The notes below the pieces were generated by a model, which searched no databases, had not been told where the DNA came from, and was given only the letters and a program-made list of their open reading frames with translations. Shown here piece by piece: positions 27,459 through 43,564 of a DNA stretch of 64,000 nt. This stretch comes from Oscillospiraceae bacterium (GTDB taxonomy: Bacteria > Bacillota_A > Clostridia > Oscillospirales > Oscillospiraceae), in assembly GCA_017516785.1 (NCBI GenBank), contig JAFXAV010000075.1, positions 62,001-126,000 on the forward strand, written 5' to 3'. Positions within the stretch are counted from its first letter, which is position 1. The number at the start of each line of letters is the position of its first letter. The position numbers and the translations under genes are program-made.

Positions 27459-28106
27459 TTACTTATCCTTATCGCCCTTGGCTTCATCAATATAGCTGTA
27501 CAGGGTGTACTTGGAAATACCGAAGAAGTTGCACACCCGCTGACCAGACTTGGTGATCAGGAATGCGCCGCTGTCGTTCAGGAAGCCGATAGCCTTGACC
27601 TTGTCTTCCTTGTTCATCAGTGCCACAGGCTTGCCGACCAGCTGAGCGCTCTGCTTGATCAGCTCTTCCAGCAGATCGTTGACATTGTGGGAAATGGTTA
27701 CAGGCTCCTGAGCTGATGTATCCGCCGCGGTAAATGCATGGATCTGATCCTCAACCGCCTTCATCATGGTGATGTCGTAGTTGATGGCGAAAATGCCGAT
27801 GACCTTGCCCGCTTCATCCCGCATGAACATGGTGCTGGACTTCAGGATCTTGCCGTCCTCGGTTCTGGTCAGATAAGACAGGCGGTCTTCCAGCTTGGAA
27901 GGATCAGCCTTCAGTGCCTCCCACACAACATGGGAAGGACCGTCACCCACCTTGCGGCCGGTCACATGGCCGTTCTCAATGGCGACGATGGAGTGCTCAT
28001 CTTCCGTGGCGCACAGATCGTGGACAACCACTTCACAGTTGGAACCAAACTGACGGGCAACGCCCTTGGCCAGCTGGGTTAAAAAAGCAATTTCATTTGG
28101 TTTCAT
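27459..28106 (-). CDS. YheO-like PAS/HTH transcriptional regulator
   Basis: A 215-residue protein of the YheO-PAS plus HTH_22 type. The N-terminal PAS-like domain (about 1-115) has GVARQFGSNCEVVVHDL, SIVAIENGHVTGRKVGDGPS and KSSTMFMRDEAGKVIGIFAI. The C-terminal HTH (about 170-210) has GAFLITKSGQRVCNFFGISK. Relatives such as DauR repress amino-acid catabolic genes, and family members occur near purine clusters. It is divergent from ssnA and probably controls the ssnA-ygfK-xdh operon (inference). Promoter and terminator are both visible. Confidence 0.82.
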   Translation of the reverse strand: MKPNEIAFLTQLAKGVARQFGSNCEVVVHDLCATEDEHSIVAIENGHVTGRKVGDGPSHVVWEALKADPSKLEDRLSYLTRTEDGKILKSSTMFMRDEAGKVIGIFAINYDITMMKAVEDQIHAFTAADTSAQEPVTISHNVNDLLEELIKQSAQLVGKPVALMNKEDKVKAIGFLNDSGAFLITKSGQRVCNFFGISKYTLYSYIDEAKGDKDK

Positions 28107-28462
28107 TGTTTTCAGTCCCCTTCCGAACTTCCTTTATGAAATGATTATATCAGTTTATCAAGGAATTTCAATGGTTCAAATAAAAAATTTGTAGCAAAAA
28201 CTGAAATTTTGTCAAAGCCGCAGGCTGAAACGCAGTGCCTCGCGCACGGGCCGGCTTTAAGGAAGCTTCTCAGAACTTTTCTTCCGAAGCAGCGATCGTT
28301 CCGCTGCGGGAAGGATTTTGAAAAACACCGGAGTATCCGCCAATACTCAAGGCTTTTCAAAGTCCCGACTGCCCCGGACCGGCCGCTCCTTCAGACGAAT
28401 CGCTCCCGGAGGCGACCATACATTATATATCCTTCCATTCAAATAAAGGAGGCAAAACAAAC
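28107..28462. other. Long divergent region and leader upstream of ssnA
   Basis: 356 bases. The minus-strand promoter for the regulator is at 28144-28171. The ssnA side has a GC-rich stretch (28210-28410) with several short inverted repeats and only a weak promoter candidate (TTGAAA 28318-28323, 18 bases, AATACT 28342-28347). AAAGGAGG precedes the ATG. I cannot match it to a known riboswitch. Confidence 0.45.
28144..28171 (-). promoter_or_regulatory. Promoter for the YheO-type regulator
   Basis: Minus strand: TTGAAA at 28171-28166, 16-base spacer, TATAAT at 28149-28144. Confidence 0.6.
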
Positions 28463-29806
28463 ATGCTGATCGTAGGAAATGGTAAGCTCATCACCCGCGA
28501 CCCCGCAAACCCCTATCTGGTGGACGGCGCTGTCGTCATTGACGGCGAACTCATCAAGGAAGTCGGTACTCTGGCTGACATGAAGGCCAAGTATCCCAAC
28601 TCTGAGTTTGTGGATGCTCAGGGCGGCGTCATTATGCCCGGTCTGATCAACGCACACACTCACATCTACTCCGGTCTGGCTCGTGGCCTTTCCATCGCTG
28701 GCAAGAACTCCCGCAACTTCATCGAAGTTCTGGAAGACACCTGGTGGAACATCGACCGTCACCTGACCATGGACGGCACCAAGGCCTGTGCTTACCCCAC
28801 TGTCCTGGACTCCATCCGCAACGGTGTCACCACCATCGTTGACCATCACGCATCCTTCGGCGAGATCCCCGGCACTCTGTTCACCATCAAGGACGTCTGC
28901 CAGGAAATCGGCATCCGTGCCAACCTGTGCTACGAAGTCTCCGAGCGTGACGGCGAAGTCAAGACCGCTGAGTCCATCCAGGAGAACGCAGAGTTCGCCC
29001 GCTGGGCAGCTGCACAGAACGATGACATGATCTCCGCCATGTTCGGCGGCCATGCCCTGTTCACCATCTCCAACAAGACCTTCGAGAAGATGATCGCTGA
29101 GAACAACGGCCTGACCGGCTTCCACATCCACGTGGCTGAGGGTCTGAACGACGTTTATGACTCCCTGAACCATCACATGTGCTACCCCATCGAGCGTCTG
29201 GAGCGCCTGGGCGGCATCCTGGGTCCCAAGACCATGCTGGGCCACTGCATCCATCTGACCGACTCCGAGCTGGACACCATCGCTGCCACCGGCACCATGT
29301 GTGTCAACAACCCCGAGTCCAACATGGGCAACGCTGTCGGCTGTTCCCCCGTTCTGAAGATGTTCGAGAAGGGCATCCACGTCTGCATGGGTACCGACGC
29401 TTACACCCACGACATGCTGGAATCCCTGAAGGTCTTCCTGATCATCCAGCGCCACAACGCAGGCAAGCCCAACGTCGCCTGGGGCGAAGGCACCACCATG
29501 CTGTTCCAGAACAACGCCAAGATGATGGCCAAGTACTGCAAGAAGCCTCTGGGCATCATTGCTCCCGGCGCTGCAGCTGACATCTGCGTCATGGACTACA
29601 AGCCCTTCACTCCCTTCTCCGACGAGAACATCGACGGCCACATGATCTTCGGCATGATGGGCAAGAACAACCGCACCACCATCATCAATGGCAAGGTCAT
29701 CTACAAGGACCGCGAATTCGTCAACATCGACGAGGATGCCATCAATGCATGGACCATGGAGCAGGCCAAGAAGCTGTGGGGCGCTCTGAACAACCGCGTT
29801 TACTAA
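28463..29806 (+). CDS. ssnA: SsnA-family aminohydrolase
   Basis: A 447-residue metal-dependent amidohydrolase of the SsnA family (putative chlorohydrolase/aminohydrolase). The HxH metal motif is in MPGLINAHTHIYSGLARGLS near residue 69, with a third histidine in FHIHVAEG near 221, a fourth in LGHCIHL near 259 and the Asp in GTDAYTHDML near 312. Known clusters place SsnA with ygfK, xdh, ygeX and hyuA in anaerobic purine degradation, where it likely deaminates or opens a purine-derived ring (inference). AAAGGAGG sits before the ATG. It is the first gene of the ssnA-ygfK-xdh-ferredoxin transcription unit. Confidence 0.92.
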   Translation: MLIVGNGKLITRDPANPYLVDGAVVIDGELIKEVGTLADMKAKYPNSEFVDAQGGVIMPGLINAHTHIYSGLARGLSIAGKNSRNFIEVLEDTWWNIDRHLTMDGTKACAYPTVLDSIRNGVTTIVDHHASFGEIPGTLFTIKDVCQEIGIRANLCYEVSERDGEVKTAESIQENAEFARWAAAQNDDMISAMFGGHALFTISNKTFEKMIAENNGLTGFHIHVAEGLNDVYDSLNHHMCYPIERLERLGGILGPKTMLGHCIHLTDSELDTIAATGTMCVNNPESNMGNAVGCSPVLKMFEKGIHVCMGTDAYTHDMLESLKVFLIIQRHNAGKPNVAWGEGTTMLFQNNAKMMAKYCKKPLGIIAPGAAADICVMDYKPFTPFSDENIDGHMIFGMMGKNNRTTIINGKVIYKDREFVNIDEDAINAWTMEQAKKLWGALNNRVY

Positions 29807-29872
29807 ATAAAAACCACCGCTTATCTACCAACTGAATAATCCCTACCATATCAATTCATAAGTCTTTTTGGA

Positions 29873-29903
29873 GGCTGCATCCGGCACACATCCGGATGCA
29901 GCC
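29873..29903 (+). promoter_or_regulatory. Intergenic hairpin between ssnA and ygfK
   Basis: GGCTGCATCCGG (29873-29884) pairs perfectly with CCGGATGCAGCC (29892-29903). No T-run follows, so it is more likely an mRNA stability or processing element than a terminator. Confidence 0.6.
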
Positions 29904-29939
29904 CGACCCAAAATCACATAAACATTGGAGGAATAAAAC

Positions 29940-32933
29940 ATGGCTGATATTATGCGTCCCATTCCCTTTGGTCAGATGATGACCTGGATCCTGAAGGAGA
30001 ACGAGGAAAAGGGCTCCATCTTCGGCGTTGCAAAGCAGGTCCACCACACCACCGGCAAGGCTCTGCCCATCTTCGACGAAAAGATCGAGACTCCCTACGG
30101 TCCCGCAGCAGGCCCCAACTCTCAGCTGGCTCAGAACATCGTTGCAGCATACGCAGCAGGCTCCCGTTTCTTCGAACTGAAGACCATCCAGCAGATGGAC
30201 GGCGAAGAGCTGAGCAAGTGCGTCAACAAGCCCTGCATCACCGCAGGCGACGAGTGCTACAACTGTGAATGGTCCACCGAGCTGTACGTTCCCGAAGCCT
30301 ACAACGAGTACGTTAAGGGCTGGTGGGCATGTAAGCTGATGGCAAAGGAACTGGGCATGGGCGACCCCAACGGTTTCGTTTTCAATATGTCCGTCGGTTA
30401 CAACCTGGATGACATCAAGAAGCCCAAGACCAACACCTACATCGACAACATGATGGATGCTTCCAAGACCGAGATCTGGAACGAGTGCAAGTCCTGGACC
30501 CTGGCTAACCTGGATCTCTTTAAGAACGTCGATGCTGAGTACGTCGAGAGCGTTTCCGCCCGCGTTTCTAACTCCATCACCGAATCCACCCTGCATGGCT
30601 GCCCTCCCCAGGAGATCGAAGCCATCGCCCGCTACCTGATCACCGAAAAGCACCTGAACACCTACATCAAGTGCAACCCCACTCTGCTGGGCTACGAGTA
30701 CGCACGTAAGCGCCTGGACTCCCTGGGCTTCGACTACATCGCTTTCACTGACAGCCACTTCGTGGAAGACCTGCAGTGGGCAGATGCAGTTCCCATGTTC
30801 GAGCGTCTGATCGCCCTGTGCGAGCAGGAAGGCGTCGAGTTCGGTCTGAAGCTGACCAACACCTTCCCCGTCGACGTCAAGGCCGGCGAGCTGCCCAACA
30901 ACGAGATGTACATGTCCGGTCGTTCCCTGTACCCCCTGTCCATCTCCCTGGCACGCCGCATCACCGACCAGTTCAACGGCAAGCTGAGAATCTCCTACTC
31001 CGGCGGCGCAGAAGCCCGTAACATCAAGGCTCTGTTCGACGCAGGTATCTGGCCCATCACCATGGCCACCACCATCCTGAAGCCCGGCGGATACGAGCGT
31101 ATGACTCAGGTCTACAATGCTCTGGGCGACTGCGGCGACAAGCGTTGGGAATCCCTGAATGTCGAAGCTGTCCGCGCTCTGGACGACGGCGTCGCTACCG
31201 ATCCTCTGTACCAGAAGCCCATCAAGCCCCTGCCCGTCCGTCACATCGGCGAGCAGGTTCCCCTGGTTGACTGCTTCAATGCTCCCTGCCGCAATGGCTG
31301 CCCCATCGAGCAGGACATCCCCGCTTACCTGACCGCTGTTGGCGAAGGCCGCATGGCTGATGCTCTGAACATCATCCTGGAGCGCAACGCTCTGCCCTTC
31401 ATCACCGGCACCATCTGCCCCCATCACTGCGGCGACAAGTGCATGCGTAACTACTACGACGAGCACGTTTACATCCGCGAGGCCAAGCTGACCGCAGCTA
31501 CCGGCGCATTCGAAGAAGTCCTGGCTACCCTGAAGCCCGCCGCTCCCGTGGCCGGCAAGAAGGTTGCAGTCATCGGCGGCGGCCCCGCTGGTCTGGCAGC
31601 AGCTTCCTTCCTGTCCCGCGCTGGCGTTGACGTCACCGTTTACGAGCGCACCGACAAGCTGGGCGGCATCGTCCGTCACGTGATCCCCGAGTTCCGTATC
31701 TCCACCCAGTCCATCGACAACGACGTGGCACTGTGCAAGGCATACGGCGCCAAGTTCGAGCTGAATACCGAAGTCACCTCCGTTGCTGACCTGCTGGCTG
31801 CCGGCTACACCGACGTTATCGTCGCTGTCGGCGCTTGGAAGGCCGGTGCTACCGGTGTTGAGTACGGTGAGACTCTGAACGTTATCAAGTTCCTGTACGC
31901 AGCAAAGAACGCTCCCGAGACCCTGAACCTGGGCAACGACGTTGTCGTCATCGGCGGCGGCAACACCGCTATGGACGCTGCCCGCGTTGCAAAGCGTCTG
32001 GGCGCTGAGAACGTCCGCCTGATCTACCGTCGTACCAAGCGCTACATGCCCGCCGACGAAGAAGAGCTGGCTGAAGCTATCGAAGACGGCGTTCAGTTCA
32101 TGGAACTGCTGGCACCCATCGGTGTCAAGGACGGCGTCCTGACCTGCGAGGCTATGGAGCTGGGCGCTCCCGATGCTTCCGGCCGCCGCTCTGTGGTTGC
32201 TACCGGCAACAAGGTTGAAATCCCCGCTTCCATCGTCATCACCGCTATCGGCGAGAAGGTCGAGACCGGCCTGTACGAGGGTATCGGTGTTGAGCTGACC
32301 AAGAAGGGCACTCCCGTCGTCGACGAGAACATGCAGACCTCCGTCGCTCACGTCTACGCTGTTGGTGACGGCCGCCGCGGCCCCGCAACCATCGTTGAGG
32401 GTATCGCTGACGCCGCCAAGGCTACCACCGCTATCGCCGGCTATGACTTCGGCAAGTACACCGAAGCCAACGTCGATCCCGACTACCAGAAGATCCTGGA
32501 CAAGAAGGGCTCCCTGTGCTCCGACTGCGCTTCCTGCGAAGACAGCCGCTGCCTGGGCTGCGCTACCGTCTGTGAGACCTGTGCTTCCGTCTGCCCCAAC
32601 CGTGCAAACGTGGCTATCGCTGTTCCCGGCATGCGTCAGCGCCAGATCGTCCACGTGGACGGCATGTGCAATGAGTGCGGCAACTGCCTGATCTTCTGCC
32701 CCTACGATTCCCGCCCCTACAAGGATAAGTTCACCCTGTTCTGGACCAAGTGGGACTTCGAGAACTCCACCAACGCCGGCTGGCTTGAGCTGGGCGACGG
32801 CAAGGTCCTGGTCCGTCTGGGCGACACTGTTGCCGAGTACGTCGTGGCCGATCCCGCCTGCGGCCTGTACGAGCCTCTGCGTCAGATCATCCTGGCTGTT
32901 GAAAATGACTACAGCTGGCTGCTGACCAAGTAA
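29940..32933 (+). CDS. ygfK: Putative selenate reductase subunit YgfK (flavin/iron-sulfur oxidoreductase)
   Basis: A 997-residue protein. Residues 1-430 form a dihydropyrimidine dehydrogenase/dihydroorotate dehydrogenase-like barrel (IKCNPTLLGYEYARKRLDSL, GFDYIAFTDSHFVED). Next is an iron-sulfur segment (CNAPCRNGCPIEQDIPAYL, then TICPHHCGDKC). A GltD-like FAD site (VAVIGGGPAGLAAASFLSRA) lies near 540 and an NAD(P) site (VVVIGGGNTAMDAARVAKRL) near 668. C-terminal ferredoxin cysteines cluster from about 858 (CSDCASCEDSRCLGC, CNECGNCLIFCP). The selenate-reductase name is historical; in purine clusters it probably transfers electrons in reductive purine-ring chemistry with Xdh. Bias towards CGT/CGC and GTT codons suggests high expression. 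Confidence 0.93.
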   Translation: MADIMRPIPFGQMMTWILKENEEKGSIFGVAKQVHHTTGKALPIFDEKIETPYGPAAGPNSQLAQNIVAAYAAGSRFFELKTIQQMDGEELSKCVNKPCITAGDECYNCEWSTELYVPEAYNEYVKGWWACKLMAKELGMGDPNGFVFNMSVGYNLDDIKKPKTNTYIDNMMDASKTEIWNECKSWTLANLDLFKNVDAEYVESVSARVSNSITESTLHGCPPQEIEAIARYLITEKHLNTYIKCNPTLLGYEYARKRLDSLGFDYIAFTDSHFVEDLQWADAVPMFERLIALCEQEGVEFGLKLTNTFPVDVKAGELPNNEMYMSGRSLYPLSISLARRITDQFNGKLRISYSGGAEARNIKALFDAGIWPITMATTILKPGGYERMTQVYNALGDCGDKRWESLNVEAVRALDDGVATDPLYQKPIKPLPVRHIGEQVPLVDCFNAPCRNGCPIEQDIPAYLTAVGEGRMADALNIILERNALPFITGTICPHHCGDKCMRNYYDEHVYIREAKLTAATGAFEEVLATLKPAAPVAGKKVAVIGGGPAGLAAASFLSRAGVDVTVYERTDKLGGIVRHVIPEFRISTQSIDNDVALCKAYGAKFELNTEVTSVADLLAAGYTDVIVAVGAWKAGATGVEYGETLNVIKFLYAAKNAPETLNLGNDVVVIGGGNTAMDAARVAKRLGAENVRLIYRRTKRYMPADEEELAEAIEDGVQFMELLAPIGVKDGVLTCEAMELGAPDASGRRSVVATGNKVEIPASIVITAIGEKVETGLYEGIGVELTKKGTPVVDENMQTSVAHVYAVGDGRRGPATIVEGIADAAKATTAIAGYDFGKYTEANVDPDYQKILDKKGSLCSDCASCEDSRCLGCATVCETCASVCPNRANVAIAVPGMRQRQIVHVDGMCNECGNCLIFCPYDSRPYKDKFTLFWTKWDFENSTNAGWLELGDGKVLVRLGDTVAEYVVADPACGLYEPLRQIILAVENDYSWLLTK

Positions 32934-32946
32934 GCTTATCTACCCT

Positions 32947-32970: not shown

Positions 32971-33002
32971 ATCATAAATACTTTTTGAAAGAAGGATTCC
33001 GT

Positions 33003-35579
33003 ATGAGCTATACCTTTACTGTCAACGGCGTCCAGCGTACTACCGATGAGAAGAAGTCCCTGCTTCGCTATCTCCGCGATGATCTGCGTCTGACCTCTGT
33101 CAAGGACGGCTGCAGCCAGGGTGCCTGCGGTGCATGTACCGTCATCATCGACGGCGTCACCTGCAAGTCCTGTGTTCCCACCACCGACCGCCTGGAAGGC
33201 AAGAACATCGTCACCGTTGAAGGTCTGACTGAGTGGGAAAAGGAACTGTACACCTATGCCTACGGCGAAGCCGGCGCTGTTCAGTGCGGCTTCTGCATCC
33301 CCGGCATGGTCATGTGTACCAAGGCACTGCTGGACGTCAATCCCGACCCCACCGAGGACGAGATCAAGTACGCTCTGCGCAACAACTACTGCCGCTGCAC
33401 CGGCTACGTGAAGATCATTGCAGCTGTCAAGCTGGCAGCCAAGATCAAGAAGGCCGGCGCCATCCCCGCCCCCACCAGCGATGACTGGCACGTGGGCAAC
33501 CGCGTCCATCGTCTGGACGTCGAGGAGAAGGTCCTGGGCTACGGTCAGTATCCCGATGACATCTACCCCGAAGGCACTACTTACGCCGGCTGTGTCCGCA
33601 GTAAGTACCCCCGCGCCCGTGTCCTGTCCATTGACACCTCCAAGGCCGAAGCTCTGAAGGGCGTTGTCAAGTGCATCACCGCAGCTGACATCCCCGGCGA
33701 GAACTTCATCGGCCACCTGAAGCATGACCAGTACACCCTGGTTCCCGTGGGTGAACTGACCCACTACCTGGGCGATGCCATCGTTCTGATCGTTGCTGAA
33801 GACACCGCAACCCTCGAGAAGGCCAAGAAGCTGGTCAAGATCGAGTACGAGGTCCTGCCCGCAGTCACCTGCATCGCTGATGCAAAGGCTCCCGGCGCTC
33901 CCCTGGTCTTTGAGACTGACAAGTCCAACGTCCAGGCTCACGAGCACATCACCCGCGGTGATGCCCGCGGCCAGATTGCCAAGGCACCTCACGTCATCTC
34001 CCATCACTTCGAGACTCCCTGGACTGAGCATGCATTCCTGGAGCCCGAAGCAACTACTGCATTCATCGATGAAGACGGCGACATCTTCGTCTACTCCACT
34101 GACCAGTCTGCTCACCAGACCCTCCACGAGTGCCAGCTGCTGCTGGGCACCAAGAAGGTCAAGGTTCAGAACGCTCTGGTCGGCGGCGGCTTCGGCGGCA
34201 AGGAAGACATGACCGTTCAGCATCTGGCTGCACTGGCTGTCTACCATACCAAGCGCCCCGTTAAGATGAACCTGACCCGTGCCGAGTCCCTGCTGGTGCA
34301 CCCCAAGCGTCACCACTTCTCCATGGACTTCACCATGGGCTGCGACAACGACGGCAAAATCATGGGTGTCGTGGCTGTCTGTGAGTCCGATACCGGCGCA
34401 TACGCCTCCCTGGGCGGCCCCGTTCTGCAGCGTGCATGTACCCACGCCGCTGGTCCCTACGCTTACGAGAACTTCGAAATCGAGGGCACCGCTTACTACA
34501 CCAACAATCCTCCTGCAGGTGCATTCCGTGGCTTCGGCGTCACTCAGACCTGCTTCGCCACCGAGACCCTGCTGAACATGATGGCCGAAAAGATCGGCAT
34601 CACTCCCTGGCAGATCCGCTATGTCAACGCCATCCGTCCCTGGGGCGTCCTGCCCAACGGTCAGATCGTTGACGACTCCACCGGTCTGGTGGAAACCCTG
34701 GAGGCTGTCAAGCCTTACTATGACGCAGCTGTCGCTGCCGGCAAGCCTGTCGGTATTGGCTGCGCCATGAAGAACGCCGGCGTTGGCGTCGGTATCCCCG
34801 ATACCGGCCGCGTCAAGCTGCTGATTGAGAAGGATCAGAAGGTCCACATCTACTCCGGCGCTTCCTGCATCGGTCAGGGCCTGGGCACTGTCCTGGTTCA
34901 GAACGTTGTTGAGTACACTGGCCTGAACCGCGAGGACATCGTCTACGAGCGCTCCAATACCTGGTATGCTCCTGACTCCGGTACCACCTCCGGTTCCCGT
35001 CAGACTCTGGTCACCGGCGAAGCCTGTATCCGCGCCTGCCGCCTGCTGAAGGCTGAGCTGGATGCCGGCAAGACCCTGGCCGACCTGGTCGATAAGGAAT
35101 TCTACGGCGAGTACCTGGCCAAGACCGATCCTCTGGGTGCCAAGGTTCCCAACCCCAAGAGCCACGTTGCTTATGGCTACGCAACCCAGCTGTGCATTCT
35201 GGACAAGAAGACCGGCAAGGTTGAGCAGATGATCGCCGCTCACGACGTGGGCAAGGCAGTCAATCCTCTGTCCTGCGAAGGCCAGATCGAAGGCGGCGTC
35301 CTGATGAGCATGGGTTTCGCCCTGCGTGAGGAGTATCCTCTGAAGGACTGCAAGCCCATCGAAAAGTACGGCTCCCTGGGTCTGTTCCGCGCTCACGAGA
35401 TCCCCAAGATCATCCCCATCGTCATTGACAAGCCCGGTCTGGATGTGGCCGGCGGTGCAATTGGTATCGGTGAAATCACCTCCATCCCCACCGCTCCCGC
35501 CATCACCGAAGCTTACTATCAGCTCGACGGTGAGCGCCGTTACAGCCTGCCTATCCATGGCACGCCCTATAACAAGTAA
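33003..35579 (+). CDS. xdh: Selenium-dependent xanthine dehydrogenase (fused Fe-S and Mo subunits)
   Basis: An 858-residue molybdenum hydroxylase. The N-terminal [2Fe-2S] domain (DGCSQGACGACTVIIDG with C near 40-50, CKSC) and the helical second [2Fe-2S] domain (QCGFCIPGMVM; NNYCRCTGY near 135) precede the Mo-pterin domain from about 160 on (ALVGGGFGGKEDMTVQHLAA; PPAGAFRGFGVTQ near 500; YSGASCIGQGLGTVLVQNV; GGAIGIGEITSIPTAPAI at the end). No FAD domain is present, so YgfK or the following ferredoxin must supply or take electrons. The single-chain form fits the Se_dep_XDH type. I found no in-frame TGA, so selenium is expected as a labile cofactor installed by YqeB/YqeC, not selenocysteine. The start at 33003 follows GAAGGA. 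Confidence 0.93.
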   Translation: MSYTFTVNGVQRTTDEKKSLLRYLRDDLRLTSVKDGCSQGACGACTVIIDGVTCKSCVPTTDRLEGKNIVTVEGLTEWEKELYTYAYGEAGAVQCGFCIPGMVMCTKALLDVNPDPTEDEIKYALRNNYCRCTGYVKIIAAVKLAAKIKKAGAIPAPTSDDWHVGNRVHRLDVEEKVLGYGQYPDDIYPEGTTYAGCVRSKYPRARVLSIDTSKAEALKGVVKCITAADIPGENFIGHLKHDQYTLVPVGELTHYLGDAIVLIVAEDTATLEKAKKLVKIEYEVLPAVTCIADAKAPGAPLVFETDKSNVQAHEHITRGDARGQIAKAPHVISHHFETPWTEHAFLEPEATTAFIDEDGDIFVYSTDQSAHQTLHECQLLLGTKKVKVQNALVGGGFGGKEDMTVQHLAALAVYHTKRPVKMNLTRAESLLVHPKRHHFSMDFTMGCDNDGKIMGVVAVCESDTGAYASLGGPVLQRACTHAAGPYAYENFEIEGTAYYTNNPPAGAFRGFGVTQTCFATETLLNMMAEKIGITPWQIRYVNAIRPWGVLPNGQIVDDSTGLVETLEAVKPYYDAAVAAGKPVGIGCAMKNAGVGVGIPDTGRVKLLIEKDQKVHIYSGASCIGQGLGTVLVQNVVEYTGLNREDIVYERSNTWYAPDSGTTSGSRQTLVTGEACIRACRLLKAELDAGKTLADLVDKEFYGEYLAKTDPLGAKVPNPKSHVAYGYATQLCILDKKTGKVEQMIAAHDVGKAVNPLSCEGQIEGGVLMSMGFALREEYPLKDCKPIEKYGSLGLFRAHEIPKIIPIVIDKPGLDVAGGAIGIGEITSIPTAPAITEAYYQLDGERRYSLPIHGTPYNK

Positions 35580-35595: not shown

Positions 35596-36090
35596 ATGGC
35601 TATGAAGAAGAAGTTCCCCTACAAGACCGCTGTCGTGGCCTGCAACGGCGGCTGCCGCGCCAACAGATACGTTCCCGAGCGCTGCACCTACGGCTGCATC
35701 GCCTGTGAGCAGTGTGTCATCGCCTGTAAGTTCGGCGCCATCTCCATCAACGACATCGGTGTTGCCGAGGTCAATGAGGAAAAGTGCATCGCATGCGGCG
35801 CCTGCGTCAAGGCATGCCCCCTGAACCTGATCAAGGTTCACGAGTGCGCTAACTTCATCGTTGTCAAGTGCGCCAACAAGGACAAGGGCAAGGATGCCCG
35901 CGCTGTCTGCGAGAAGAGCTGCATCGGCTGCGGTATGTGTGAGAAGGTCTGCACCGCCAGCGCCATCCACGTTATTGACAACGTGGCCGTCATCGACGAT
36001 GCAAAGTGCCTCAGCTGCGGCATGTGCGCCGTCAACTGCCCCCGTGGTGCCATCATCGACACCCGCGGTGTTCTGACCGGCAAGTATTAA
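35596..36090 (+). CDS. Multi-cluster 4Fe-4S ferredoxin-type protein
   Basis: A 164-residue protein with four cysteine groups: CTYGCIACEQCVIAC, CIACGACVKACP, CIGCGMCEKVC and CLSCGMCAVNCP. This pattern resembles the RnfB/HycB-like polyferredoxin domain. An unusually purine-rich GGAGGGGG site precedes the ATG. It follows xdh by 16 bases and very likely passes electrons between Xdh and YgfK or to an Rnf/ferredoxin pool (inference). Confidence 0.9.
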   Translation: MAMKKKFPYKTAVVACNGGCRANRYVPERCTYGCIACEQCVIACKFGAISINDIGVAEVNEEKCIACGACVKACPLNLIKVHECANFIVVKCANKDKGKDARAVCEKSCIGCGMCEKVCTASAIHVIDNVAVIDDAKCLSCGMCAVNCPRGAIIDTRGVLTGKY

Positions 36091-36474
36091 TTCCATTCAG
36101 GCGGCGGGTTCCGCCCGCCGCCCCATTCCTCTGGACCTAACTTTTTGTTTGGTCGGCTCCTTCCCAGGTTTTTCGAAACGACTCGAAATTTTGCACCTCA
36201 AATTTACAGTTCCATCGCCGCCTCCGGCCAGTAACTAAATTTGTCCGTCAAAAAACAGGGTTTTTACCCGGAAATATTCGAAAACCGATACAGCAAAATA
36301 GCCAAAAACAAGGGGCATTTACCCCCCTGAAACGAGAAATTTTCTCCAAATTCAGCAGACGAAAAAGCTTGACATTCAGCCTTTCGTTGGGTATTATAGA
36401 TATATATCCATACAAAAAGTTTTGTAACCAAAAAAATTTTTAGCATACATATTAATTTAGGAGGCTAAGAAATA
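36091..36474. other. Intergenic region between the Fe-S gene and ygeX
   Basis: 384 bases. A perfect 9-bp GC-rich stem (GGCGGCGGG 36100-36108 with CCCGCCGCC 36114-36122) has no T-run. A second small hairpin (GGGG/CCCC near 36312-36327) follows, then the strong ygeX promoter. No gene is seen. Confidence 0.6.
36369..36397 (+). promoter_or_regulatory. Strong promoter for the ygeX-ygeY-ygeW-carbamate kinase unit
   Basis: Consensus TTGACA at 36369-36374, 17-base spacer, TATTAT at 36392-36397. A ~70-base leader and TAGGAGGC precede the ATG. Confidence 0.8.
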
Positions 36475-37689
36475 ATGGAACCCAAGATGAAATGGAAACT
36501 GAATACCATGCCCAAGGGCGATGGTAACGAACTGGAAATCATGGCTCTGGAAAACGTTGCCAATGCCCGTGCTTTCCACGAGAGCTTCCCCCAGTACTGC
36601 ATCACTCCTCTGGCTAAGCTGGACAAGATGGCTGAGTACCTGGGCCTGAACTTCCTGGCTATCAAGGACGAGAGCTACCGCTTCGGCCTGAATGCTTTCA
36701 AGGTTCTGGGTGGCTCCTTCGCAATGGCTAAGTACATTGCTAAGGAACTGGGCAAGGACGTTTCTGAGATGACTTACGAGTACCTGACCAGCGCTGCTCT
36801 GAAGGAAGAGTTCGGCCAGGCTACTTTCTGCACCGCTACCGACGGCAACCACGGCCGTGGCGTGGCATGGGCTGCCAACAAGCTGGGCCAGAAGGCTATC
36901 GTTCACATGCCTAAGGGCTCCTCCAAGTACCGCTTCGACAACATCGCCAAGGAAAACGCAAAGGTCACCATCGAAGAAGTCAACTACGACGAGTGTGTCC
37001 GTATTGCTGCTGCTGAGGCTGACGCTGTTGAGCATGGCGTTATCGTTCAGGATACCGCTTGGGAAGGCTACACCGAGATCCCCAGCTGGATCATGCAGGG
37101 CTACGCAACCATGGGTTCCGAGGCTCTGGAGCAGCTGAAGGGCTACGGCGTTGAGCGCCCCGACGTTGTCATCCTGCAGGCTGGCGTTGGCTGCATGGCC
37201 GGTGCTATCTGCGCTTACATCGTCAACAGCTATCCCGACAATCCTCCCAAGATCGTCATCGCTGAGGCTGGCATCGCTGACTGCCTGTACCAGGGCGCTG
37301 TTGCCAACGACGGCAAGTACCGCATCGTTGACGGCGATCTGCAGACCATCATGGCTGGCCTGGCTTGCGGCGAGCCCAACATCGTCTGCTGGGAAATCCT
37401 GCGTAACCATGTTACCGCATTCTGCTCCTGCCCCGACTGGATGGCAGCTAAGGGCATGAGAATGCTGGCAGCTCCCATCAAGGGCGACCCCGCTGTCTGC
37501 TCCGGCGAATCCGGCGCAATCGGCATGGGCGTTATCGCTTCCCTGATGACCGATCCCGACTACGCCGAACTGAAGGACGCTCTGGGCCTGGGCAAGGATT
37601 CCAAGGTCCTGCTGTTCTCCACCGAAGGCGACACCGATCCCGACAAGTACAAGAGCATTGTCTGGGGCGGCGAATACGCAACTGTGTAA
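36475..37689 (+). CDS. ygeX: Diaminopropionate ammonia-lyase
   Basis: A 404-residue PLP enzyme of the tryptophan synthase-beta fold. The PLP lysine is in GLNAFKVLGGSFAMA near residue 75, CTATDGNHGRGVAWAANK near 125 binds the phosphate region, and the C-terminal AGVGCMAGAICAYIV and CSGESGAIGMGVIASLM segments are typical. It cleaves 2,3-diaminopropionate to pyruvate and two ammonia. In purine clusters this releases the carbon skeleton as pyruvate. The start is fixed by TAGGAGGC. Codon bias is strong (GCT, CTG, CGT/CGC). Confidence 0.95.
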   Translation: MEPKMKWKLNTMPKGDGNELEIMALENVANARAFHESFPQYCITPLAKLDKMAEYLGLNFLAIKDESYRFGLNAFKVLGGSFAMAKYIAKELGKDVSEMTYEYLTSAALKEEFGQATFCTATDGNHGRGVAWAANKLGQKAIVHMPKGSSKYRFDNIAKENAKVTIEEVNYDECVRIAAAEADAVEHGVIVQDTAWEGYTEIPSWIMQGYATMGSEALEQLKGYGVERPDVVILQAGVGCMAGAICAYIVNSYPDNPPKIVIAEAGIADCLYQGAVANDGKYRIVDGDLQTIMAGLACGEPNIVCWEILRNHVTAFCSCPDWMAAKGMRMLAAPIKGDPAVCSGESGAIGMGVIASLMTDPDYAELKDALGLGKDSKVLLFSTEGDTDPDKYKSIVWGGEYATV

Positions 37690-37743
37690 TCCCTTTAGCA
37701 AAAGCTATCCACATATTTTCATCTTTCAAGGAGGAAACTACCA

Positions 37744-39156
37744 ATGGTCAATGCAAATCTGGACTACGCTCAGATCAAGGCTGCCGCTGAGGCATACAAG
37801 GCTGACATGTCCGCTTTCCTGCGCGCTATGATTTCTCATCCCTCTGAATCCTGCGAAGAGGGTGCTGTCTGCGAGTGCATCAAGGCTGAAATGGAAAAGC
37901 TGGGCTTCGACGAAGTTGAATTCGACGGCCTGGGCAACGTTATCGGCTGGATGGGCACCGGTGACAAGATCATCGCCATCGACTCCCACATCGACACTGT
38001 CGGTATCGGCAACATCAACAACTGGACCCATGATCCCTATGTTGGTTACGAAGACGACGAGGTCATCTACGGCCGCGGCGGCTCCGACCAGGAGGGCGGC
38101 ATGGCTTCCGCTACCTACGGCGCTAAGATCATGAAGGACCTGGGCCTGATTCCCGAGGGCTACAAGATCATGGTCATCGGTTCCGTTCAGGAAGAAGACT
38201 GCGACGGCATGTGCTGGCAGTACGTTGTTAACAAGCACTTCCCCAAGAAGGGCATCAAGAAGGAACAGGTTGAGTTCGTTATCTCCACCGAGCCCACCGA
38301 CGGCGGTATCTATCGTGGCCATCGCGGCCGTATGGAAATCCGCGTTGATGTCAAGGGCGTTTCCTGCCACGGCTCCGCTCCCGACCGCGGCGACAACGCT
38401 ATCTACAAGATGGCTGACATCCTGCAGGACGTTCGCGCTCTGAACGAGAACGACGCTGCTGACGAGACCGAGATCAAGGGTCTGGTCAAGATGCTGGATC
38501 CCAAGTACAACCCCGACCACTACGAAGACGCTCGCTTCCTGGGCCGCGGCACTTGCACCACTTCTCAGATCTACTTCACCTCTCCCTCTCGCTGCGCTGT
38601 TGCTGACTCCTGCTCCATCTCCATCGACCGCCGTATGACCGCCGGTGAGACCTGGGATTCCTGCCTGCAGGAAATCCGCGATCTGCCCAACGTCAAGAAG
38701 TACGGTGACGACGTCGTCGTTTCCATGTACATGTACGATCGTCCCTCCTGGACTGGCGAAGTCTACGAGACCGAGTGCTACTTCCCCACTTGGATCAACA
38801 AGAAGGAATCCGCACACGTCAAGGCTCTGGAAGACGCACATCTGGCACTGTTCGGCGACACCCGTACCTGCCCCAACTCCGAAATCGCTCGCGCTAAGCG
38901 TGAGGGCCGTCCCCTGACCGACAAGTGGACCTTCTCCACCAACGGTGTTGCTATCCAGGGCCGCTACGGCATCCCCTGTGTTGGCTTTGGCCCCGGTGCT
39001 GAGTCTCAGGCTCATGCTCCCAACGAGATCACCTGGAAGTCCGACCTGGTTACCTGTGCCGCTCTGTACGTCGCAGCTGTCAACCTGTACGACGAGTCCA
39101 AGAAGATCGACGTCTACGAGTTCCGCGCTGGCAAGACCGACAACGAGATCCTGTAA
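37744..39156 (+). CDS. ygeY: YgeY-family M20-type hydrolase, selenium metabolism-linked
   Basis: A 470-residue M20 peptidase-like metallohydrolase. The first metal ligand is His in [12 protein letters not shown] near residue 83, with [20 protein letters not shown] near 120 (Asp ligand), a Glu pair in [10 protein letters not shown] near 155 and a Zn ligand in [20 protein letters not shown] near 190. A dimerisation domain with [15 protein letters not shown] follows. The family is known only from linkage to selenium/purine clusters; a ureido- or carbamoyl-diaminopropionate hydrolase role is likely (inference). AAGGAGG lies before the ATG, and the gene is 54 bases after ygeX. Confidence 0.92.
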
Positions 39157-39192
39157 TCCAGCTTCTCACAACAAGTAATCCCCGGCACCTCT

Positions 39193-39216
39193 GGATCCGG
39201 ACTGCAATTCGGATCC
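39193..39216 (+). promoter_or_regulatory. Intergenic hairpin between ygeY and ygeW
   Basis: GGATCCG (39193-39199) pairs with CGGATCC (39210-39216); no T-tail follows. It is another likely processing or stabilising element in the purine cluster. Confidence 0.5.
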
Positions 39217-39269
39217 TGAGGCTAAGTAAAAAACTTTATTTAAATTAAAATTAAAGGAGACTACTCAAA

Positions 39270-40469
39270 ATGGACAAGACCCTGCAGCAGTATATTGACA
39301 AGCTGAACTCCCTGAACTTTGCTGAGATGTACAACGGCGACTTCTACCTGACTTGGGACAAGACTCAGGACGAGCTGGAAGCTGTTTACACCGTCGCTGA
39401 TGCTCTGCGCTACATGCGTGAGAACAACATCTCCACCAAGATCTTCGAGTCCGGCCTGGGCATCTCCCTGTTCCGCGACAACTCCACCCGTACTCGTTTC
39501 TCCTTCGCTTCCGCCTGCAACCTGCTGGGCCTGGAAGTTCAGGATCTGGACGAGGGTAAGTCTCAGGTCGCTCACGGTGAGACCGTCCGCGAGACTGCAA
39601 ACATGGTTTCCTTCATGGCTGACGTCATCGGTATCCGTGACGACATGTACATCGGCAAGGGCCACACCTACCAGAAGGAGTTCATGGACGCTGTTACCGA
39701 AGGCAATGCAGCTGGCATCCTGGAGCAGAAGCCCACTCTGGTCAACCTGCAGTGTGACATCGACCATCCCACCCAGGCTATGGCTGACGCCCTGCACATC
39801 ATCCACGAGTTCGGCGGCATCGAGAACCTGAAGGGCAAGAAGATTGCTATGACTTGGGCATACTCTCCCTCCTACGGCAAGCCCCTGTCCGTTCCCCAGG
39901 GTATCGTTGGTCTGATGACCCGCTTCGGCATGGACGTCGTCCTGGCTCATCCCGAGGGCTACGAAATCATGCCCGAGGTCGAGGCTGTTGCTAAGGCTAA
40001 CGCTGAGAAGTACGGCGGCTCCTTCACCAAGGTCAACACCATGGCTGAAGCTTTCGTCGATGCTGACGTCGTTTACCCCAAGTCCTGGGCTCCCTTCGCT
40101 GCTATGGAAAAGCGTACCGTCCTGTACGGCAACGGCGACATGGCTGGCGTCAAGGCTCTGGAGCTGGAGCTGCTGGAGCAGAACAAGGAGCACATGGATT
40201 GGTGCTGCACTGAAGAGCTGATGGCTACCACCAAGGACGGCAAGGCTCTGTACATGCACTGCCTGCCCGCTGACATCAACGACGTTTCCTGCGTCCACGG
40301 CGAAGTCGAAGCTACCGTCTTCGATCGTTACCGCGATCCTCTGTACATGGAAGCTTCCTACAAGCCCTACATCATCGCTGCTATGATCTTCCTGGCTAAG
40401 GTTAAGGACGTTCAGGGCACCCTGAAGGCTCTGGAAGAGAAGAGCACCGCTCGTTGGTTCCAGGCTTAA
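39270..40469 (+). CDS. ygeW: Knotted carbamoyltransferase YgeW
   Basis: A 399-residue transcarbamylase-fold enzyme. The carbamoyl-phosphate motif STRTRFSFASACNLLG lies near residue 72, DIDHPTQAMADALHI near 165 and MHCLPADINDVSC near 330. The substrate is unproven, but in purine clusters phosphorolysis of a carbamoylated diaminopropionate to carbamoyl phosphate is the favoured role (inference from pathway logic). The product would be used by the carbamate kinase gene that follows. AAAGGAGA precedes the ATG. Highly biased codons. Confidence 0.93.
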   Translation: MDKTLQQYIDKLNSLNFAEMYNGDFYLTWDKTQDELEAVYTVADALRYMRENNISTKIFESGLGISLFRDNSTRTRFSFASACNLLGLEVQDLDEGKSQVAHGETVRETANMVSFMADVIGIRDDMYIGKGHTYQKEFMDAVTEGNAAGILEQKPTLVNLQCDIDHPTQAMADALHIIHEFGGIENLKGKKIAMTWAYSPSYGKPLSVPQGIVGLMTRFGMDVVLAHPEGYEIMPEVEAVAKANAEKYGGSFTKVNTMAEAFVDADVVYPKSWAPFAAMEKRTVLYGNGDMAGVKALELELLEQNKEHMDWCCTEELMATTKDGKALYMHCLPADINDVSCVHGEVEATVFDRYRDPLYMEASYKPYIIAAMIFLAKVKDVQGTLKALEEKSTARWFQA

Positions 40470-40500
40470 GTTTCCGCTCTTAGGAGACTCCTAATCTAAC

Positions 40501-40548
40501 CCAAACCGGGCCCGTACACGCCGCACACGGCAGTGTGCGGGCCTTTGG
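40501..40548 (+). promoter_or_regulatory. Long hairpin between ygeW and the carbamate kinase gene
   Basis: CCAAA--GGGCCCGTACAC (from 40501) pairs with GTGTGCGGGCC-TTTGG (to 40548) with small bulges. No T-run, so read-through to the kinase gene is likely. Confidence 0.5.
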
Positions 40549-40605
40549 TCATTGATATGACCACTTTCTGCCATATTTAAAAATTATTACGAGGTGTTAT
40601 AAATT

Positions 40606-41514
40606 ATGGGCAAGCGTATCGTTATCGCTCTGGGCGGCAACGCTCTGGGCAGCAATCTGCCTGAGCAGATGGAAGCTGTTAAGATCACTGCTAAGGCTAT
40701 CGTTGACCTGATCGAAGAAGGCCACGAGGTTATCGTCGCTCACGGCAACGGCCCCCAGGTCGGTATGATCAAGAACTCCATGGACAAGTCCATCCCCATG
40801 TCTGTCTGCGTCGCTATGAGCCAGGCTTACATCGGCTATGACCTGCAGAACGCTCTGCGTGAAGAGATGCTGGGCCGCGGCCTGAACAAGGCTGTCTCCA
40901 CCGTCCTGACCCAGGTCGAAGTTGACCCCGCTGACCCCGCATTCCTGAAGCCCACCAAGCCCATCGGTTCCTTCATGACCAAGGAAGAGGCTGAGGCTCT
41001 GGAAGCTAAGGGTTATACCTGTGTTGAAGACTCCGGCCGTGGCTACCGTCAGGTCGTTGCTTCTCCCCGTCCTCAGGGCATCGTTGAGCTGGAGACCATC
41101 AAGACTCTGGTCGACGCTGGCCTGGTCGTCATCGCCTGCGGCGGCGGCGGCATTCCCGTTGTCAAGACCGATGGCCATCACCTGAAGGGTGCTGCAGCTG
41201 TTATCGACAAGGACTTCGCTTCCTGTGTCCTGGCTCAGCAGCTGGATGCTGACTGCCTGATCATCCTGACCGCTGTTGAGAAGGTCGCTATCCACTTCGG
41301 TAAGCCCGATGTTGAATGGCTGGCTGACCTGACCCCCGCAAAGGCTCAGGAGTACATCGAAGCTGGCGAGTTCGCTCCCGGCTCCATGCTGCCCAAGGTT
41401 CAGGCTGCTGTTATGTTCGCAGAGTCCAAGCCCGGCCGCACTGCTCTGATCACCCTGCTGGAGAAGGCTAAGGACGGCGTTGCTGGCAAGACCGGTACCT
41501 CCATCCATCAGTAA
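40606..41514 (+). CDS. arcC: Carbamate kinase
   Basis: A 302-residue kinase that converts carbamoyl phosphate and ADP to ATP, ammonia and CO2. It opens with IVIALGGNALGSNLPEQM and has AHGNGPQVGMIKNSMD near residue 50, VVIACGGGGIPVVK near 175 and VIDKDFASCVLAQQL near 205. In E. coli purine-cluster naming it is yqeA. It is the likely energy-yielding step of the pathway. GAGGTG lies before the ATG. A strong terminator follows, so hydantoinase and ridA genes have their own starts. Confidence 0.94.
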   Translation: MGKRIVIALGGNALGSNLPEQMEAVKITAKAIVDLIEEGHEVIVAHGNGPQVGMIKNSMDKSIPMSVCVAMSQAYIGYDLQNALREEMLGRGLNKAVSTVLTQVEVDPADPAFLKPTKPIGSFMTKEEAEALEAKGYTCVEDSGRGYRQVVASPRPQGIVELETIKTLVDAGLVVIACGGGGIPVVKTDGHHLKGAAAVIDKDFASCVLAQQLDADCLIILTAVEKVAIHFGKPDVEWLADLTPAKAQEYIEAGEFAPGSMLPKVQAAVMFAESKPGRTALITLLEKAKDGVAGKTGTSIHQ

Positions 41515-41546
41515 TCTTCTGATTCAGCTGAATTAGGCAATTTATG

Positions 41547-41586
41547 ACCCGCCCTGCGAAGCAATTCGCCGGGCGGGTTTTTTACT
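41547..41586 (+). terminator. Terminator after the carbamate kinase gene
   Basis: ACCCGCCC (41547-41554) and GGGCGGGT (41571-41578) enclose a second GCGAA/TTCGC stem, followed by a T-run. Confidence 0.9.
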
Positions 41587-41599
41587 GATATTTTTCAAT

Positions 41600-41629
41600 T
41601 TGTCATTGACAAAAGCCGACTTTTATAAG
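41600..41629 (+). promoter_or_regulatory. Promoter and palindrome for the dihydropyrimidinase-like gene
   Basis: TTGTCA at 41600-41605, 18-base spacer, TATAAG at 41624-41629. The -35 sits inside a perfect 13-bp palindrome, TTGTCATTGACAA (41600-41612), a possible operator. Confidence 0.5.
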
Positions 41630-41740
41630 AAAATTAAAAAAGATACCTATGCCCCGGATGTTCTGTCGAAATTTGGCATGATTCCTGTCCGGGATCCATG
41701 ATTATTGCAAAATATCAGTATCAGAAAGGTGAACGAAACT

Positions 41741-43090
41741 ATGACGATCCTGAAAAACGGCACCCTGGTTACCCCTGAAGGCCTGAAGATGGCCGACCTG
41801 GCCTTTGACGGCGACAAGATTACCGCCATCGGCGAAAATCTTCCCGTTTCCGAAGGTGACACCGTTGTCGATGTCGGCGGCTGTATTGTATTCCCCGGCT
41901 TTATCGACGGCCACACCCATCTGGACCTGGTCAATGACCTGGGTCATACCGCTGACAATTTTGAAACCGGCTCCCGCGGTGCTGTCTGCGGCGGTACCAC
42001 CACCTGCATGGATATGGCTACCCAGGAAAAGGGCGACACCTTGGTTCACACCATGGAAGTCTGGAAGGACCTGGCTCAGAACATTTCCTGCAACTACGGC
42101 ATTCATATGTCCATCACTGACTGGAACGAGACCACCAAGGCCGAAATCCAGACCATGGCTGAAGAAGGCATCACCACCTATAAGACCTACACTGCCTATG
42201 GCATCGCCATCGACGATGTGGACACCATGGCAGTTCTGAAGGAACTGAAGACTGTGAACGGCATCTGCGGCATCCACTGCGAAAACGGCCCCCTGATTCC
42301 TGTTCTGCAGAAGGAAGTTCTGGAGTCCGGCATCACCTCCCCCGCCGGTCATCCCATCAGCAAGCCCGACTATCTGGAAGCTGAAGCTATCAACCGCGTG
42401 TGCTATATCGCTGAAATTCTGGACTCCCCCGTTCATATTGTCCACCTGTCCAGCAAGCTGGGTCTGGACGAGATCCGTGCCGCCCGTAACCGCGGCGTCA
42501 CCGTCTACGCCGAGACCTGCCCCCAGTATCTGCTGTTTAACGACAGTGTTTACTCCCGTCCCGACGGCTCCAAGTTCGTTCTGAGCCCTCCCATCCGCAA
42601 GGATGAGGACGCTGCAGCCCTCCACGAGGCCGTTGTGAACGGCGAAATCGGCACCATCTCCACCGACCACTGCCCCTTCAACTTCACTCTGAAGCAGGCT
42701 CAGGCTGCCAAGGGCTTTGATAAGATCCCCGGCGGCGGCGCAGGTGTTGAACATCGCCCCGCGCTGATGATGACCCACTTCAAGAACGATCTGGATTACG
42801 TCCAGATGAACAAGATCCTCAGCGAAAACGCAGCAAAGCTCTTTAACCTGTACCCCAAGAAGGGCTGCCTGCAGGTTGGCTCCGATGCTGACATCACTGT
42901 TTGGGATCCCAGTGTCAAGTGGACCATCTCTGCTGATAATCAGCACCAGAACGTGGACCACACCCCCTACGAAGGTTTCGAAGTCGAAGGCAAGGCAAAG
43001 TACGTCTACGTCAACGGCCAGCTTGCTGTTGTCGACGGCGAGCCCACCGGCGTTCAGGCAGGCACCTTCGTCCGCGCTGACTGCATCTAA
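41741..43090 (+). CDS. hydA: Dihydropyrimidinase/hydantoinase family protein
   Basis: A 449-residue cyclic amidohydrolase. The HxH motif is in IDGHTHLDL near residue 59, the carboxylated lysine in ITTYKTYTAYGI near 147, further histidines in IHCENG near 180 and VHIVHLSS near 236, and the Asp in STDHCPFNF near 311. It hydrolyses cyclic ureides such as hydantoin and dihydropyrimidines. In purine clusters the equivalent gene is called hyuA or dht and opens a ring intermediate. The start at 41741 (MTILKNGTLV) follows GAAAGGTG. It is transcribed from its own promoter. Confidence 0.9.
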   Translation: MTILKNGTLVTPEGLKMADLAFDGDKITAIGENLPVSEGDTVVDVGGCIVFPGFIDGHTHLDLVNDLGHTADNFETGSRGAVCGGTTTCMDMATQEKGDTLVHTMEVWKDLAQNISCNYGIHMSITDWNETTKAEIQTMAEEGITTYKTYTAYGIAIDDVDTMAVLKELKTVNGICGIHCENGPLIPVLQKEVLESGITSPAGHPISKPDYLEAEAINRVCYIAEILDSPVHIVHLSSKLGLDEIRAARNRGVTVYAETCPQYLLFNDSVYSRPDGSKFVLSPPIRKDEDAAALHEAVVNGEIGTISTDHCPFNFTLKQAQAAKGFDKIPGGGAGVEHRPALMMTHFKNDLDYVQMNKILSENAAKLFNLYPKKGCLQVGSDADITVWDPSVKWTISADNQHQNVDHTPYEGFEVEGKAKYVYVNGQLAVVDGEPTGVQAGTFVRADCI

Positions 43091-43118
43091 AAAACAGCCT
43101 GATCCAATCATAAAACAC

Positions 43119-43147
43119 TTGTCTTATGGCTGGATTGGCGGTATAAT
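43119..43147 (+). promoter_or_regulatory. Promoter for ridA
   Basis: TTGTCT at 43119-43124, 17-base spacer, TATAAT at 43142-43147, about 37 bases before the ATG. Confidence 0.7.
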
Positions 43148-43183
43148 AGAGTTATCCAAAACTTACAAAGGAGATTGATTTCA

Positions 43184-43564
43184 ATGAGCAACGTCGCTAT
43201 CAACACCCCCAATGCTCCCGCCGCTATCGGCCCCTACTCCCAGGCTATCCAGGCTGGCAACACCATCTATGTTTCCGGTCAGCTGCCCATCGACCCCGCT
43301 ACCGGCGCTTTCGCTGGTGACGAGATCAAGGCTCAGACCCGTCAGAGCCTGACCAACATGAAGAACATCCTGATCGAAGCCGGCACCGATATGTCCGCTG
43401 TCGTCAAGACCACCGTTCTGCTGGCCAACATCGCTGACTTCGCTGCTATGAACGAAGTTTACGCAGAGTTCTTCACCGCTCCCTATCCCGCCCGCGCTGC
43501 TTTCCAGGTTGCTTGCCTGCCCAAGAACGCTCTGGTCGAGATCGAGTGCGTCGCTGTTAAGTAA
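43184..43564 (+). CDS. ridA: RidA-family enamine/imine deaminase
   Basis: A 126-residue RidA (YjgF/YER057c/UK114) protein: [32 protein letters not shown], and [20 protein letters not shown] with the active-site arginine near residue 104. It quickly hydrolyses 2-aminoacrylate, the reactive product expected from diaminopropionate lyase YgeX, which explains its place here. The start at 43184 follows AAAGGAG. Highly biased codons suggest abundance. Confidence 0.94.

Follow-up and report, generated by a model that had tools for sequence, protein, structure and literature searches.

A probable reductive urate cluster of an Oscillospiraceae bacterium in which a polyferredoxin probably partners the selenium-dependent hydroxylase

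The DNA analysed here, called the window, is a stretch of 64,000 nucleotides from an Oscillospiraceae bacterium (assembly GCA_017516785.1, contig JAFXAV010000075.1, positions 62,001 to 126,000) with a G+C content of 55%. It carries a gene cluster that probably serves anaerobic urate breakdown, and in which the gene for a selenium-dependent molybdenum hydroxylase of the xanthine dehydrogenase (XDH) type, xdh, is followed directly by the gene for a small polyferredoxin (pFd). An earlier note on this DNA had named 11 genes between positions 27459 and 43564. All are present in the order it gave, nine of them above curated NCBIfam cut-offs and two, the regulator and the polyferredoxin, as Pfam domain matches. 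The core cluster is as follows, with bit scores set against the family cut-off.

27459..28106, minus strand: YheO-like regulator with PAS and HTH_22 domains (PF08348, PF13309), divergent from ssnA
28463..29806, plus strand: SsnA aminohydrolase (TIGR03314, 537 against 455.5 bits; NF005540 also above cut-off)
29940..32933, plus strand: YgfK, a flavin/Fe-S reductase, yanthine reductase by analogy to E. coli (TIGR03315, 1315 against 835)
33003..35579, plus strand: XdhAC-type selenium-dependent molybdenum hydroxylase, probable urate reductase (TIGR03311, 1154 against 830)
35596..36090, plus strand: pFd, a polyferredoxin of 164 amino acids with four 4Fe-4S motifs (from its sequence, an RnfB-type PDB chain, adjacency and fusion)
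36369..36397, plus strand: sigma-70-like site TTGACA-17-TATTAT upstream of ygeX (consensus match only, 11 of 12 positions)
36475..37689, plus strand: YgeX diaminopropionate ammonia-lyase (TIGR03528, 601 against 532)
37744..39156, plus strand: YgeY M20 hydrolase (TIGR03526/NF009555, 601 against 321)
39270..40469, plus strand: YgeW knotted carbamoyltransferase (TIGR03316, 770 against 500)
40606..41514, plus strand: carbamate kinase (TIGR00746, 363 against 358)
41705..43090, plus strand: HyuA-type D-hydantoinase/dihydropyrimidinase (TIGR02033, 476 against 393)
43175..43564, plus strand: RidA-family imine/enamine deaminase (TIGR00004, 175 against 106)

These limits hold for the core, but selenium genes extend the locus (18998-23953, and yqeB and yqeC at 58257-60114). 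The genes are real, but two starts were replaced. To judge by relatives, which begin with MSYTF or nearby, xdh probably starts at ATG 33003 and not at TTG 32985, and pFd starts at ATG 35596, behind a GGAGG-type site, and not at 35425. Only 16 nucleotides separate the xdh stop codon from the pFd start.

This kind of cluster is already known, but the host lineage is new. Excerpts of Li et al. 2025 (PMC12507026) describe a reductive urate route, its steps assayed with E. coli and C. difficile enzymes. XdhD-YgfM reduces urate to 2,8-dioxopurine (yanthine) with NADH; YgfK or UacX, plus SsnA, converts yanthine to ureidomethyl-hydantoin; HyuA forms 2,3-diureidopropionate; YgeW or UacY forms albizziin; and YgeY and YgeX then yield pyruvate. 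The authors also suggest that variants of the pathway enzymes use NADH, ferredoxin or F420. The window carries SsnA and YgfK above their cut-offs, a first enzyme that belongs to the XDH family TIGR03311 and has a predicted activity, and HyuA, YgeW, YgeY and YgeX. The earlier reading of a selenium-linked anaerobic purine breakdown through diaminopropionate to pyruvate, ammonia and carbamoyl-phosphate-derived ATP thus keeps its products, but the characterised route is reductive. Likewise, the caution that the chemistry is not fully settled is partly outdated because the pathway was published in 2025: the roles of YgfK, SsnA and YgeY have been reported for the E. coli enzymes, but according to Percudani (PMC12990295) three points are still open: what donates electrons to XdhAC physiologically, which ureido group is removed first, and the stereochemistry. 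The comparison with characterised urate degraders that had been proposed finds the full set of families in one place, but with YgfK rather than the UacX of C. difficile.

The first enzyme appears to differ from its E. coli counterpart in how it obtains electrons. The window XDH has 2Fe-2S and molybdopterin (MoCo) domains, and the FAD domain PF00941 is not among its Pfam matches. The solved structure closest to it in sequence is the aldehyde oxidoreductase 1dgj/1sij, an FAD-less enzyme, with a match that spans the full length. The window was also searched by tblastn with 22 queries (four for an FAD subunit, two for mocA, seven for permeases, and the rest for yqeB, yqeC, ygfS and ygfT); no FAD subunit was found with YgfM, XdhB or two clostridial XdhB proteins. 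Among solved chains, pFd is closest to the RnfB-type subunit 9eri_B (97 bits). It is 47-48% identical over 130 amino acids to the RnfB of two close relatives (L213/L214; here L, G and P label loci, genomes and database proteins retrieved in comparisons), but the PF04060 domain is not among its Pfam matches and it lacks the N-terminal membrane segment seen in those RnfB proteins.

A scan of genome contigs with the window XDH was used to survey the neighborhood of xdh in other organisms. The best 80 of 157 relatives were kept, and six with less than 700 nucleotides after xdh were set aside, leaving 74 assessable loci. Where ssnA or ygfK is present, pFd directly follows xdh in 30 of 31 loci, the single exception (L070) being placed in the other XDH clade. 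The proportion is 13 of 43 where neither gene lies in the fetched stretch, which is a minimum statement of absence, as many stretches ended early at contig ends. A tree built from 95 XDHs has a supported clade of 50 rows (SH-aLRT 100), which contains 44 with an adjacent pFd (the window and 43 loci) and three sisters (L039, L042 and L078) whose XDH has its own C-terminal domain with two [4Fe-4S] clusters. The other three rows (L022, L028 and L075) end at contig ends 93, 0 and 38 nucleotides after xdh. A ferredoxin is thus adjacent or fused in 47 of the 50 rows, that is, in every assessable member. Outside the clade, pFd occurs at L053; at L050, just outside it, there is none.

Many loci have FAD genes some 3 kb downstream of xdh, but in the five such loci listed (L013, L024, L044, L047 and L070) these genes follow a second xdhA and were therefore not taken as partners. 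At L044, L047 and similar loci, a complete xdhABC set comes after a related selenium-type XDH that lacks pFd, and selD and yedE are often close by; these loci possibly represent a separate purine or hydroxylase system.

Adjacency would also be expected if pFd were a general ferredoxin, or a partner of YgfK, that stays next to xdh because the gene order was inherited from a common ancestor. The loci are indeed related, ferredoxins with four clusters serve as generic carriers, and YgfK is itself an Fe-S enzyme. Fused proteins bear on this explanation. A protein search with the L042 protein as query scored at least 7993 candidates and listed 120 of them. XDH is joined to 4Fe-4S domains in 15 among the 120 matches listed, and the fused matches rank first because the query is itself fused. 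Two proteins, P0148 and P0199, carry a whole four-cluster pFd in the XDH chain, including the RnfB-like central segment, with tails that are respectively 58% (over 157 aligned positions) and 55% (over 161) identical to the window pFd. In P0145, P0146, P0151 and P0161, the C-terminal half of pFd is fused to XDH. Each of the 10 tails tested matches a set of 44 pFd sequences with a higher score than it does the RnfB of the two close relatives. When 91 XDH cores are placed in a tree, the 14 fused rows all lie inside the pFd clade (SH-aLRT 99). The fusion label requires five changes on this tree, at least three of them forced by starred branches; a change may be a fusion or a separation, and the tree is a quick one with SH-aLRT support only, on which 32 rows in neither group were left uncounted.

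Pairwise distances give a further view. For the 29 rows that hold all four genes (the window and 28 loci), pFd distances correlate with those of XDH at 0.78, of YgfK at 0.54 and of SsnA at 0.43. The other correlations are 0.95 for SsnA and YgfK, 0.78 for XDH and YgfK, and 0.71 for XDH and SsnA. The partial correlation of pFd with XDH given SsnA is 0.75, and that of pFd with SsnA given XDH is -0.29. By these distances, the cluster looks like two modules, XDH-pFd and SsnA-YgfK. The fusions are to XDH and arose or broke up repeatedly, pFd distances track XDH and not YgfK (partial correlations 0.67 against -0.16), and at L021 the regulator and ssnA stand between the XDH-pFd pair and ygfK. We therefore assign only a slight probability to a general or YgfK-dedicated ferredoxin.

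Paralogues in two close relatives, G001 and G008, point the same way as the distances. Each genome has two selenium-type XDH genes above the cut-off and, at an E value of 1e-25, one pFd match and one longer RnfB-like match. The pFd accompanies only the XDH paralogue of the uricolytic cluster. The second XDH, 47% identical to that of the window, has a LysR-type gene beside it and not pFd.

Because of the adjacency, the repeated fusion or separation, and distances that track XDH and not SsnA, pFd is likely the direct redox partner of XdhAC, the predicted urate reductase of this clade. As a whole, we consider it probable that the locus encodes the reductive anaerobic urate pathway with pFd in this role. 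With enzyme chemistry taken from the papers, the FAD-less, selenium-dependent XdhAC would reduce urate to yanthine, YgfK (with NAD(P)H) and SsnA would reduce and open the pyrimidine ring, and HyuA would open the hydantoin. The two ureido groups would be removed by YgeW (through phosphorolysis, with carbamate kinase forming ATP) and YgeY, after which YgeX would release pyruvate and ammonia. RidA proteins act against 2-aminoacrylate, and the one encoded here would clear this intermediate. A RidA-family gene is present in eight of the 32 ssnA-bearing loci among the best 80 XDH relatives, and at L138 and L139 such a gene adjoins ygeX. Unlike the E. coli enzyme, XdhAC in this lineage would not receive electrons from an FAD subunit; pFd would pass low-potential electrons from the cell ferredoxin pool to its [2Fe-2S] centres, presumably in physical contact with it. 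We lean, by a modest degree, toward a two-component ferredoxin:urate oxidoreductase in one clade of gut Clostridia, composed of XdhAC and an RnfB-derived pFd subunit that became fused to it repeatedly, and driven by the ferredoxin/Rnf pool rather than by NADH.

The electrons might instead flow in the opposite direction. XdhAC could be oxidative, converting xanthine or hypoxanthine to urate, with pFd as an acceptor that feeds Rnf or a hydrogenase and with another enzyme making yanthine. Genomics cannot tell a donor from an acceptor, and the direction given above is inferred. The family name and the history of selenium xanthine dehydrogenases fit oxidation, as do the second selenium-type XDH and the RnfB-type match (one each in G001 and G008) of the close relatives. 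Glu606 of E. coli XdhD, proposed to orient urate, aligns with a gap in the window XDH, in a gappy region. Yanthine formation is therefore not predicted by that residue; a counterpart is found in none of the FAD-less selenium-type XDHs aligned, including those from loci with a C. difficile-like gene set, and Glu606 was dropped as a marker of urate reduction. Moreover, 13 assessable loci have the pair although the stretch fetched for them contains neither ssnA nor ygfK, and the three fused sisters L039, L042 and L078 likewise have no ssnA nearby, which implies that the pair is not limited to urate clusters. In Coprococcus catus (L010), an ssnA locus lies elsewhere on the same contig as the XDH-pFd pair. 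Against an oxidative XdhAC stand the pair in 30 of the 31 assessable loci that bear ssnA or ygfK, and a cluster in which we saw no alternative candidate for forming yanthine. Also, Percudani (PMC12990295) relates that in the study by Liu et al. 2025 the XdhAC of C. sporogenes reduced urate to yanthine when an artificial donor was supplied. On balance, we regard an oxidative XdhAC as unlikely.

Other observations also weigh against a dedicated urate-reductase partner or restrict its range. Because the sequences are related by descent, the adjacency counts are not independent observations, and no genomic context accompanies the fused database proteins. In G006, SsnA and YgfK are present, but the XDH lacks pFd and there is no pFd match at an E value of 1e-25. 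Of 398 genomes sampled evenly across the phylum, 86 have SsnA above the cut-off. A long selenium-type XDH-like gene is present in 32 of these SsnA loci, and pFd is adjacent in only one, L205, although just 63, 423 and 481 nucleotides were covered after xdh at L130, L145 and L156. L205 is Schaedlerella, the same as L004 and the centre of the phylum sample; no other of the 86 SsnA regions has a pFd match. This sample rules out pFd as a universal feature of uricolytic clusters. As sampled, the XDH-pFd pairing is confined to one clade plus L053, and other bacteria presumably use other electron donors.

Within that range, the XDH-polyferredoxin unit appears to be new, and pFd is a strong candidate for the electron carrier of XdhAC. 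The pair was not found in the titles and abstract openings of the literature searched; Liu et al. 2025 and 2023 may discuss it. The word "polyferredoxin" does not occur in PMC12507026, which proposes ferredoxin as reductant for the C. difficile enzymes, and an excerpt of PMC12898341 names xdhAC and not ferredoxin. Urate breakdown by gut bacteria influences urate levels in hosts that lack uricase, and probiotics are being engineered to carry it out (excerpts of PMC12507026). If XdhAC and pFd do form a ferredoxin:urate oxidoreductase, the physiological donor that has been missing for XdhAC would be identified for this clade. The pFd is a testable candidate partner that is clade-wide, small and available in natural single-chain fusions; co-expression, or a natural fusion such as P0148, would be a way to an active enzyme. 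It could also serve as a genetic marker separating the ferredoxin-linked from the NADH-linked variant.

Further genes that bear on the cluster flank it:

18998..19900, minus strand: selenium-metabolism-associated LysR regulator (NF040786, 313 bits against 250)
19890..21071, minus strand: cysteine desulfurase-family or selenocysteine lyase-like enzyme (TIGR01977, 454 against 377; NF040779 SclA under cut-off, 422 against 525)
21214..22350, plus strand: YedE-family putative selenium transporter (TIGR04112, 500 against 200)
22612..22857, plus strand: putative Se/S carrier protein (PF11823, 55 against 25)
22916..23953, plus strand: SelD, selenophosphate synthetase (TIGR00476, 389 against 125)
25500..27146, minus strand: D-aminoacylase-like amidohydrolase (PDB D-aminoacylase 1rjq, 244 bits)
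58257..59063, minus strand: YqeB, Se-molybdenum cofactor maturation (TIGR03309, 350 against 220)
59074..60114, minus strand: YqeC, selenium cofactor protein (TIGR03172, 198 against 73)

The selenium link drawn by the earlier note is therefore borne out and larger than it had stated, with yqeB and yqeC about 15 kb downstream of the urate cluster and selD, yedE and the carrier, lyase-like and LysR genes upstream. Mutants of C. difficile in selD fail to exploit urate for rapid growth when glycine and threonine are absent from the medium, and a yqeB mutant shares this phenotype (Johnstone and Self 2024, excerpts of PMC11448449). These phenotypes fit the selenium genes at this locus.

The D-aminoacylase-like gene is possibly a hydrolytic, UacY-like alternative to YgeW. 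Alongside YgeW, its product would give two routes of ureido removal. It is 32% identical to the D-aminoacylase-like genes of L130 and L203, and close homologues (74-84%) occur only at L001, L002, L033 and L069/L210 among the loci searched. The same gene leaves room for the idea that the cluster serves to degrade another ureide or purine derivative, which rather than urate would be the natural substrate. So does the result that no purine permease was found in the window (tblastn, seven UacT/XanQ queries, E 1e-4). However, all families of the characterised urate pathway occur together in one place, and the genomes of the close relatives G001 and G008 have purine permeases elsewhere. A substrate other than urate therefore has, in our view, only a very slight probability.

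The closest relatives of the window XDH come from deer-gut Oscillospiraceae metagenome-assembled genomes (92% identity for L069, 90% for L001 and L002), and gene order is identical in the deer-gut loci L001 and L069 and in L033. Divergence along this one cluster is uneven: YgeY (37744-39156) and RidA (43175-43564) are about 99% identical to those of L001, and pFd, the regulator and the D-aminoacylase-like gene are 79-84% identical. The PAS/HTH regulator (27459-28106) is a candidate urate or yanthine sensor; of 30 assessable loci, 14 have a YheO-like regulator that is divergent from ssnA and no more than 1.8 kb away. A search for an operator shared by the regulator-ssnA and pFd-ygeX gaps gave just an A/T-rich match of 14-16 nucleotides, which is unconvincing.

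Elsewhere in the window, large surface proteins flank the cluster at 24000-25484, 43663-46002 and 46104-48386 (all minus strand) and 48663-53711 (plus strand). A transglutaminase core is above the Pfam cut-off in the first, with weak matches below the cut-off in the other three. Cell-wall-binding type 2 repeats occur in the second, and S-layer SlpA-like matches, below cut-off, occur in the third and fourth. A protein with an F420-0:gamma-glutamyl ligase domain (14543-15736, minus strand; PF01996, 190 bits) is encoded in this Clostridia-type genome. Genes for a CotH/lamin-tail-domain protein, a VTC domain protein and a DUF4956 protein stand in a row at 8980-13643 (plus strand). Pyrimidine biosynthesis genes at 59672-63681 (plus strand) for dihydroorotase, dihydroorotate dehydrogenase and its electron transfer subunit, and OMP decarboxylase adjoin yqeB and yqeC. 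A tRNA scan and an Rfam scan (gathering threshold) of the window yielded zero matches.

Among known systems, the selenium-dependent molybdenum hydroxylase trait (excerpts of PMC2276186) shares selD, yqeB and yqeC together with a molybdenum hydroxylase, but mocA was not found in the window (tblastn, two queries). The reductive cluster of E. coli (excerpts of PMC12507026) shares SsnA, YgfK, HyuA, YgeW, YgeY, YgeX, carbamate kinase and an XDH-type first enzyme. However, E. coli XdhD uses the FAD subunit YgfM and NADH, whereas in the window a polyferredoxin is paired with XDH and no FAD subunit was found. The window also differs in an XDH of the TIGR03311 type without a counterpart of Glu606, in its PAS-HTH regulator and in a RidA gene within the cluster. 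The urate permease UacT is linked to the E. coli cluster (but not required), and none was found in the window by tblastn. The C-terminal ferredoxin region of RnfB is similar to pFd, which at 164 amino acids has neither the membrane segment nor a PF04060 match. The clusters of C. difficile and C. sporogenes (excerpts of PMC12507026; PMC12990295) have an FAD-less XDH in common with the window, but in C. difficile UacX replaces YgfK, and UacY replaces YgeW and its kinase, whereas the window has YgfK. The Desulfovibrio aldehyde oxidoreductase (1dgj, 1sij) is a single-chain molybdenum hydroxylase to which the window XDH aligns along its entire length.

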